This document shows, one piece after another, positions 8,231 to 10,512 of a stretch of DNA of 33,006 nucleotides (positions are counted from its first letter, which is position 1; the number at the start of each line of letters is the position of its first letter). The notes beneath the pieces are model-generated. The model had not been told where the DNA came from, did no database searches, and worked only from the letters and a program-made list of their open reading frames with translations. A program made the position numbers and the translations under genes. Source of the stretch: Nitrospirota bacterium (GTDB lineage Bacteria; Nitrospirota; Nitrospiria; SBBL01; JAADHI01); NCBI GenBank assembly GCA_029261165.1, contig JAJDBV010000043.1, positions 1-33,006 on the forward strand, read 5' to 3'.

Positions 8231-8289
8231 AAAAAAGCCCGGATTGTGCAACCAGAAAGACCTCTCTTTCCGTTGCCATCAGACCGGGC
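8231..8289 (-). terminator. leader attenuator terminator upstream of the nitrate-reductase-like gene
   Basis: On the minus strand GCCCGG (8289-8284) pairs with CCGGGC (8242-8237), followed at once by six T residues (8236-8231). Between the arms GCAAC/GTTGC and GAAAGA/TCTTTC also pair, giving one long nested hairpin. It ends 23 nt before the ATG at 8208, so it would stop transcription before the operon unless antiterminated. Its 5' arm is shared with hairpin P1 of the overlapping ANTAR-like motif. Confidence 0.8.
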
Positions 8290-8301
8290 GCCTTTGCCAG
8301 T
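8254..8301 (-). promoter_or_regulatory. ANTAR-type dual-hexaloop antitermination element
   Basis: P1 is ACTGGC - loop AAAGGC - GCC(C)GGT (8301-8283): six base pairs with one bulged C and one U-G pair. P2 is GAAAG - loop AGAGGT - CTTTC (8270-8255), extendable by a wobble and a C-G pair. A 12-nt linker joins them. Both hexaloops have A at position 1 and G at position 4, the signature of RNAs bound by ANTAR proteins such as NasR, AmiR and EutV. The P1 3' arm contains GCCCGG, the 5' arm of the terminator, so forming P1 would prevent termination. No ANTAR protein gene lies in this window. Confidence 0.7.
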
Positions 8302-8321
8302 AAATTTATTTTTTTATAATA

Positions 8322-8336
8322 GCAATAAACATGCCC
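8322..8336 (-). promoter_or_regulatory. sigma-54 (-24/-12) promoter
   Basis: The minus strand reads GGGCATGTTTATTGC. This matches the sigma-54 consensus TGGCAC(G)-N-TTGC in the GGCA block, the G, and the full TTGC, with the diagnostic GG-N10-GC spacing. Transcription would begin near 8310, about 9 nt before hairpin P1 of the leader. This is the arrangement expected for an NtrC-type nitrogen-controlled operon. Confidence 0.7.
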
Positions 8337-8442: not shown

Positions 8443-8476
8443 GACCGACATTTTTGTCTGGTCTTCCACATGGAAG
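8443..8476. promoter_or_regulatory. adjacent dyads, candidate enhancer region for the sigma-54 promoter
   Basis: A hairpin dyad GACCGACA-TTTT-TGTC(T)GGTC (8443-8463) abuts the inverted repeat CTTCCA-CA-TGGAAG (8463-8476). They lie about 130-165 bp upstream of the predicted sigma-54 start, a normal distance for an enhancer-binding protein. Neither matches the classical NtrC palindrome. They also lie downstream of the transglutaminase gene and could be part of its 3' end. The remainder of 8209-8535 has no gene. Confidence 0.3.
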
Positions 8477-8535: not shown

Positions 8536-10512
8536 CTAAGACCGGATCAGATCAATCTGATGTACTTTCAACCAGGATTGAACGCGGCGTTTAAGATCTT
8601 TTTGTTCTTTTGGAGAGATTTTTTCAGGGTCAAATCGATAACGATAATGAAGGGTCAGAATCGATTTTAGAGATTGAATCGATGCCCCTGATAATTTTCC
8701 GCGACCGATTCTTTTTATCCAGAGGGAAAGCGGTTCCCCGGGATCACGACCGAGGCCCAAGGCGTGTAGTTTCCTTATAATTAAATAAAAATCGGAATCG
8801 ACGTTGGCAGAATATCGTTTTGCCCTTCGATCCTTCCCTTCAGTAATAAACCGAGTCACCCGCTTTCTAAGATAGAACTGCCAGAACAGGCTTGCGAAAA
8901 GGATGGCGAAGGGCCAACCAAAATATTCTATCAAAGAAAAATCCTTTTCACTCCCCCGCCACTTTGAAAAAAGGTAGACTCCTCTTGACCAAAAATCACG
9001 TAAGGGTTCCCACATCGAGCTGGAACTCGCTTCAATAGAAGCCCAAACGCTCGGCGTTGTATCCACATTACGCCATACCCCATCAACGTAGGCCAAGGCC
9101 CAGGCATGTGCGTGTCTTTCTCGTACCACAAACTTATTTTCATTCGGCTTGAACTCTTGGACAGAGAATCCCGTCGCATATCGTGCAGGAATACCTGCTT
9201 CCCGAAGAAGCAATACCGTTGCGGTTGCAAAGTACTCACAGTGTCCGGATCGGGACTGAAATAGAAATTCTTCAATACTGTTTCCTTCAAGACGAAGAGA
9301 GTAGAAAAACTTATCTTGAAAAAAGTGTTTTATTTTTTTCAGGACCTCGGATGGGGAGAGCGTATCAAGTTCCAATTCCGAAGCAATCTTTTTAACGGAA
9401 GCTGCTTCGACAGAAGGGATGAACAAGTCGAGTTTATTCGGAGGGCTGTCGAAAGATGCGTTTTGGTCATACCGTGCACGATAAGACACAAGTCCCGGAG
9501 CAAACTCGACCTTGATATCTCCCATTCCATTCCGTCTCATTCCCATGACAGGAAGGTCTTCGATTCTATAGGTACTGTTCGGTAAGGGTAAAATTCTTTG
9601 CCCGTTTCTGAGCACCGCCTCCACAATAAGTTCCTGGTTTGTAAAAGTATTTCTTCGAAGTGTCCAGGTCGTCCCGTTGCTCTCAGATTGTACGGGCCGG
9701 AAGCCTGCATTTGAAGCCAGCCATAATGGGGACTGATAGAGATTATAACTTGCCTCTCGAAGGAGAATCGGGGCTTCTTGATCCTGATTCCGATTCACCC
9801 TGAACAAAATACGGCCAGATTGCTTCAGGGTCTTGATATCTCCTATGGCGGTCGTACTCCGATAGGGGTCCGTCCCTTCCGAAGACATCCAGGATATGAT
9901 TATATTTTCGAGTGTTGTCTGCAGGTAATGCAGTTGAACCTGACCCCAAAATCCAATCGCGCCCGCTAGGAAGAAGGAAGTAATCCATAAGGGCAAAGAA
10001 TATCTTTCAGATTTTAACGGCCATAGGGCCCATGCGGAAATCAGGAACAAGAAAAGATAAAACCATGGAGATCCGTCATTCACACCTCCCGAGGCCAGAA
10101 TACAGATGAAGAAAAATGGGTAGGTCGGATTGATGGCGGAATATGCGTTCTTTTCGCCTTGGAACGGCCGCATCCTGAGGACAATATAAAAAGTATCGAT
10201 ACTGATTTTGTCACAGGGGCTATAAATTTGAGCGATAACGATCGGAGTAAAAAGAAATGGAAGCCATTGGATGAAGGTCAAAATGCTGCCCAATAACTGA
10301 TTTGCAGTAAAAACGTATCCAATCACCCCTAGAAAGAGGAGGGCACTAACATCCCAAATCCGTCTAAAATCAGAGGACGTGGGATGCCATCTCCAGGGGA
10401 GGTAGCGGGACCCTTCACAAGCAACAGCGATTACGGAAGCCAAGGGAAGGAGGTCGACTCGCCATCCCCAAAATAGAAGAGTACAACCCAAAAGGAAGGG
10501 AGGTGTTTTCAT
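8536..10512 (-). CDS. tgpA: TgpA-like membrane transglutaminase
   Basis: A 658-residue protein of the TgpA layout: several N-terminal membrane helices (about residues 1-200), an extracytoplasmic transglutaminase-like domain, one more helix near 530-550 and a cytoplasmic tail of about 100 residues. The catalytic triad is visible as C425 (SGHCEYFA), H469 (RHAHAW) and D484 (NVDTTP). The family acts in the cell envelope and is essential in Pseudomonas aeruginosa; its natural substrate is poorly defined. The ATG overlaps the stop of the DUF58 gene by four bases (ATGA), and this is the last gene of the MoxR-DUF58-TgpA operon. Nothing is missing from the active site. Confidence 0.9.
   Translation of the reverse strand: MKTPPFLLGCTLLFWGWRVDLLPLASVIAVACEGSRYLPWRWHPTSSDFRRIWDVSALLFLGVIGYVFTANQLLGSILTFIQWLPFLFTPIVIAQIYSPCDKISIDTFYIVLRMRPFQGEKNAYSAINPTYPFFFICILASGGVNDGSPWFYLFLFLISAWALWPLKSERYSLPLWITSFFLAGAIGFWGQVQLHYLQTTLENIIISWMSSEGTDPYRSTTAIGDIKTLKQSGRILFRVNRNQDQEAPILLREASYNLYQSPLWLASNAGFRPVQSESNGTTWTLRRNTFTNQELIVEAVLRNGQRILPLPNSTYRIEDLPVMGMRRNGMGDIKVEFAPGLVSYRARYDQNASFDSPPNKLDLFIPSVEAASVKKIASELELDTLSPSEVLKKIKHFFQDKFFYSLRLEGNSIEEFLFQSRSGHCEYFATATVLLLREAGIPARYATGFSVQEFKPNENKFVVRERHAHAWALAYVDGVWRNVDTTPSVWASIEASSSSMWEPLRDFWSRGVYLFSKWRGSEKDFSLIEYFGWPFAILFASLFWQFYLRKRVTRFITEGKDRRAKRYSANVDSDFYLIIRKLHALGLGRDPGEPLSLWIKRIGRGKLSGASIQSLKSILTLHYRYRFDPEKISPKEQKDLKRRVQSWLKVHQIDLIRS

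Follow-up and report, generated by a model that had tools for sequence, protein, structure and literature searches.

A leader ahead of a nasA-like gene as a putative single-hexaloop attenuator of an ANTAR nitrogen regulon in Nitrospiria

The leader on the minus strand at 8301→8231 of the window (the whole stretch of 33,006 nucleotides analysed here, contig C38 of the 2.9 Mb genome G000), between a nasA-like gene and an upstream gene ending at 8536, is most likely a single-hexaloop ANTAR attenuator. The original prediction of ANTAR-type antitermination ahead of a nitrate-reductase-like operon is well supported by comparison with related leaders, which have a common architecture and strong covariation in the upstream hairpin P1, and by the ANTAR gene carried by each of the 35 genomes with good matches to such leaders. 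On balance we favour an attenuator of an ANTAR nitrogen regulon in Nitrospiria that has lost P1 and in which the second hairpin, P2, would act alone.

The two hairpins, their hexaloops, the terminator and the overlap between them all lie on the minus strand where the original prediction placed them (Table 1). In finer detail the hairpins differ from that description, as the stem of hairpin 1 consists of three pairs, a bulged C and three further pairs around the core GGC-AAAGGC-GCC, and in the second loop an A-U pair is predicted to form, which would leave a GAGG tetraloop. The loop of hairpin 1 has A at position 1 and G at position 4 and is closed by C-G, and its 3' arm is also the 5' arm of the intrinsic terminator, so the two structures are mutually exclusive. 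Folding of transcripts of successive length bears this out: the closing pair of hairpin 1 has a probability of 0.93 in transcripts that stop short of the final terminator arm and of 0 once this arm is included, when the terminator reaches about 1.0. The leader fold has a z-score of -3.73 relative to shuffles, the hairpins are spaced by 10 nt, and the terminator ends 22 nt ahead of the nasA start. When the leader is shuffled with its dinucleotides preserved, 1.2% of the shuffles contain two A1/G4 hexaloop hairpins of comparable quality, and the loops alone are thus weak evidence, unusual but not decisive; it is comparison with relatives that makes hairpin 1 convincing as P2. Rfam scans of the window and of the ANTAR locus gave no relevant match.

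Table 1. Features of the leader region and the adjoining genes, in window coordinates
Feature	Position	Strand	Details
Palindrome GACAAAAATGTC	8447..8458		Candidate upstream site for a sigma-54 activator; putative function
Sigma-54 type -24/-12 promoter GGCATGTTTATTGC	8322..8335	-	Motif match; predicted +1 near 8310
Hairpin 1, conserved P2 antiterminator hairpin	8283..8301	-	ACTGGC-AAAGGC-GCC(C)GGT; loop 8295-8290
Hairpin 2	8253..8272	-	CGGAAAG-AGAGGT-CTTTCTG; within the terminator loop; probably no ANTAR site
Intrinsic terminator	8231..8289	-	GCCCGG 8289-8284 with CCGGGC 8242-8237, then six T 8236-8231
nasA-like molybdopterin oxidoreductase, 726 aa	6028..8208	-	Controlled gene; Pfam
Fused DmsB-like Fe-S / DmsC-like membrane anchor, 655 aa	4083..6050	-	Pfam Fer4_11 + DmsC; NCBIfam DMSO_dmsB under cut-off

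Orthologues of nasA in the family are 76-78% identical and carry leaders at the corresponding place. In five genomes (G002, G004, G005, G006 and G007) the orthologous leader comprises P1, P2 and the terminator, for example GAAACAC-AAGGAC-GTGTTTC followed by GGC-TAAGGC-GCC, with the 3' arm of P2 forming the start of the terminator; a sigma-54 motif is recognised in all of these except G004. The architecture common to the leaders is a sigma-54 promoter, P1 (AC-[A/G]NNGNN-GU), P2 (GGC-NAAGGC-GCC) and an overlapping terminator. A direct DNA search with the window leader returned one useful relative (G041) amid chance matches, and the matches listed from a phylum-wide search all fall within the class Nitrospiria. 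A simple scan found no such leader upstream of gammaproteobacterial nasA homologues (about 70% identical).

For a quantitative assessment we rely on R1, a covariance model of 13 leaders from which the window leader was left out. Its seed contains 18 double-changed cells against 6.6 in shuffles, and it matches in 37 of 247 class genomes, where the weak matches in G099 and G102 were discarded as not leader-like, these genomes not being among those listed with an ANTAR gene. Covariation in P1 is strong: an alignment of 41 leaders (39 distinct) has 73 double-changed cells, where shuffles give 21.5 and slid controls 0-20, although this alignment was fitted to R1 and hence leans towards the model. 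Position 4 of the loop is G in all 36 P1 hexaloops and in 36 of 37 P2 hexaloops, position 1 of P1 is mostly A (27 of 36, with G in eight and T in one), and the closing context of P1 is AC/GU in 33 of the 36. The family in Nitrospiria thus has the A1/G4 hexaloop with a conserved closing pair in P1 as well, and its rule for G4 and the closing pair is that described for EutV (PMC3369931) and for NasR by SELEX (PMC7496416). At the level of the regulon, the hexaloop hairpins are therefore conserved and covarying, which was one of the two outcomes on which the original prediction depended, the other being an ANTAR gene in the genome.

According to a pattern search, the same P2 and terminator also precede other nitrogen genes, including a site in the same genome (C22:15406-15452). 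A canonical leader of this genome, scoring 66 bits, stands before a nitrite-assimilation operon with P-II, NarK and nitrite reductase genes, and further leaders are found ahead of amt-glnK, glnA-regulator, P-II, nitrate-transport and nitrite-reductase genes. Downstream genes are nasA-dmsBC, nirD with a nitrite-reductase-like gene, P-II, and a molybdopterin-oxidoreductase::P-II fusion with P-II, NarK and NirB/NirA-like nitrite reductase; Nitrospira-like genomes have a porin together with amt in this place, and a leader that follows glnA precedes a NifA/NtrC-like activator. Genus labels of this kind were assigned from genome size, gene content and the named relatives. In Manganitrophus-like genomes (L193-L197 and L200), two complete P1-P2-terminator leaders stand in tandem before a porin gene, with a sigma-54 site ahead of the first only.

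Several observations lie to the side of this comparison. The strongest leader of the genome lies over a gene in which a molybdopterin oxidoreductase domain is fused to a P-II domain (L224:4271-5377, minus strand). At L223:2161-2236 (G000:C64:22160-22235, plus strand) there is a dual-hexaloop ANTAR-type element with a terminator (32.6 bits), which has a weak sigma-70-like site upstream and no ORF of at least 80 aa soon downstream on its strand, and which may be an ANTAR-binding RNA that stands by itself, as EutX/Rli55 does. Nitrospira-like genomes (loci L242 and L243 and further g16 genomes) have a P1-P2 element in nearly identical form, GACCGAC-AACGAC-GTCGGTC; it precedes porin-amt in both L242 and L243, the latter also having P-II further downstream, and several of these genomes have their ANTAR gene 4-18 kb away from it.

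Sigma-54 sites of the type GGCA(C/T)N5TTGC are located 13-35 nt upstream in 25 of 42 leaders, the window's included, where shuffles give an expectation of 0.1, and rpoN is encoded in the genome. About 110 nt upstream of the window's sigma-54 site lies the palindrome GACAAAAATGTC; L008 and L011 have an identical copy ahead of nasA, and L006, L009, L005 and L007 have variants of it. The pattern GACANNNNTGTC is matched once in the window, with 0.35 expected.

The search for an ANTAR gene in the genome yielded a single one (73.9 bits), encoding a GAF-GAF-ANTAR protein. When residues are numbered by eye relative to the SMN motif, the RNA contacts of EutV are largely kept in this protein, with F for Y164, T for R177, and R168, M172, N173 and R175 retained. 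A NasR-like nitrate sensor, with which the original prediction drew a parallel, is not supported, since GAF domains were the only ones found beside the ANTAR domain and there is no second ANTAR gene; a NasR/NIT-type regulator was rejected, no NIT domain being fused to ANTAR in this genome. Across the class, 176 of 247 genomes have an ANTAR gene, as do all 35 R1-positive genomes (R1 E<=0.012 plus similarly strong matches; G099 and G102 excluded), a co-occurrence with a Fisher probability of 2e-6 if genomes are treated as unrelated. In G041 the gene is physically linked to a leader, in the order ANTAR-nadE-amt-glnK-glnD-glnA-[leader]-activator. Given the GAF-GAF-ANTAR architecture and the general nitrogen target genes, nitrate is no more likely a signal than nitrogen status. 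These target genes, and the similarity between the second GAF region and NifA (103 bits, under the cut-off), lead us to guess that nitrogen status, and not just nitrate, is probably what is sensed.

The product of the controlled gene is not assigned as a NasA/NasC assimilatory nitrate reductase by curated score: it reaches 523 bits to NasC (cut-off 1100) and 572 to Fdh-alpha, both under the curated cut-offs. Its best solved relatives are periplasmic nitrate reductases, e.g. 2jio and 2nap, and because of these and its neighbours a nitrate-reductase role is suggested. The closest named relatives are mostly MAGs of Nitrospirota, Troglogloeales and Manganitrophaceae. A second nasA-like homologue in the genome (L031, G000:C63:44494-46635) is 37% identical and has an in-frame TAA within the aligned stretch.

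We propose that the sigma-54 promoter would start the transcript when its enhancer-binding activator is active, and that the default fate of this transcript would be termination at 8231. The GAF-GAF-ANTAR protein may bind the GGC-AAAGGC-GCC hairpin on the nascent RNA, and the bound P2 would then hold the 5' arm of the terminator, so that polymerase could enter nasA-dmsBC. The recruiting hairpin P1, just upstream in most members of the family, is missing here, with P2 alone putatively sufficient. In the window leader the match to R1 is confined to P2 (positions 30-43, 12.4 bits), and no P1 hexaloop hairpin was found between the predicted +1 and P2. The distance from the promoter TTGC to the GGC of P2 is 23 nt, as against 41 in G002, with about 18 nt missing where P1 is expected, and the predicted transcript begins about 9 nt before P2, which leaves no room for P1. 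Four other leaders are also without P1, those of nirD in G002, G004 and G006 and one in G003 (C47); they have the P2 loop AAAGGC, with 4-7 contiguous P2 pairs.

If P1 had moved into the terminator loop, the ANTAR protein would bind hairpin 1 together with the AGAGGT hairpin, which were the two halves of the target in the original prediction; the gap upstream, the presence of A1 and G4 in both loops and the 10-nt spacing, which falls within the 5-12 nt of eut leaders (PMC3369931), would agree with this. The closing context of the AGAGGT loop is, however, AG/CU and not AC/GU, and closing-pair changes abolished EutV induction (PMC3369931); in addition the loop is predicted to close to GAGG, and among shuffled leaders that contain a 7-bp hexaloop hairpin, about 1/13 have A1 together with G4 by chance. 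Relatives have no hexaloop counterpart of this hairpin: long non-hexaloop hairpins take its place in the G041 and G108 leaders, and nothing like it exists in the four other P1-less leaders. The first half of the predicted target stands as the conserved P2. In relatives the partner P1 sits upstream of hairpin 1 with AC/GU closing, and the AGAGGT hairpin is unlikely to be the second half. We regard the rearranged pair as improbable. Less probable still is a plain terminator of the upstream gene (8536-10512), or a plain block, unrelated to ANTAR. A GC-rich stem with six T and the absence of a relevant Rfam match are what such an element would present, but it sits downstream of its own sigma-54 promoter and close before the nasA start, and termination does not need the upstream GGC arm of P2, which is nevertheless kept in all orthologous leaders.

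The main rival is a decayed attenuator, in which the ANTAR protein no longer releases the terminator without P1 and nasA depends on leaky readthrough or is silent. The missing P1 and the bulge in P2, in a family where relatives keep P1, point in this direction, whereas the P2 sequence, the overlap, the promoter and the reading frames are all intact, as is P2 in the other P1-less leaders; we consider decay rather unlikely. Counting against P2 acting alone are the bulge, the finding that EutV needed P1 to antiterminate in vivo (PMC3369931), and the roughly ten times weaker binding of NasR to a single hairpin than to the pair (PMC7496416); for this genus, moreover, the comparison covers a single species. 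Leaders without P1 become plausible in the light of the EutV-RNA structure, from which it was proposed that a single hexaloop is the minimal ANTAR motif and that P1 serves for recruitment (PMC8934654). A single-hexaloop attenuator therefore remains our preferred reading of the window leader; that it forms a natural working class with the three nirD leaders and the G003 leader is a more tentative suggestion, towards which we do not yet incline. Such leaders bear on whether a single hexaloop suffices, a question raised by the same structure.

ANTAR control of nitrogen genes is already known in Firmicutes and Proteobacteria. Open-access literature, searched in main texts, gave no report of it in Nitrospirota, a phylum not named in the main text of PMC3369931. 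What appears to be new, judged from sequence, is an ANTAR regulon in Nitrospiria and a leader of putative function without P1. In Nitrospiria, to which Nitrospira and the Manganitrophus lineage belong, nitrogen control would then centre on ANTAR antitermination. This would add RNA-level control on top of sigma-54 control outside the Proteobacteria, and provide a target regulon for GAF-ANTAR proteins, which were called uncharacterised in 2012 (PMC3369931).

The ANTAR regulons of Desulfotomaculum and Pelobacter are similar in that many leaders stand on P-II, amt, glutamate/glutamine, nitrate and nitrogenase genes (PMC3369931). With the eut leaders of Enterococcus faecalis the family shares P1-P2 hexaloops, conserved closing pairs and the overlap of P2 with the terminator (PMC3369931), but EutV is a REC-ANTAR protein that acts on ethanolamine genes and needs P1, which the window leader lacks. 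In nasTS-nasA of Paracoccus and Azotobacter, the nasA leader is likewise the site of ANTAR antitermination, on which Ntr control is superimposed (PMC5424462), through a two-protein NasS/NasT sensor unlike that of the window genome. The nasF leader of Klebsiella oxytoca with NasR combines Ntr-controlled initiation, a leader terminator and ANTAR antitermination on nitrate assimilation genes, and also has the C:G closing pair and A1/G4 hexaloops (PMC7496416, PMC5424462). NasR, however, senses nitrate by a NIT domain where the window genome has GAF-GAF-ANTAR, and nasF has two hairpins where the window leader has one canonical hairpin, in a different phylum and gene order.
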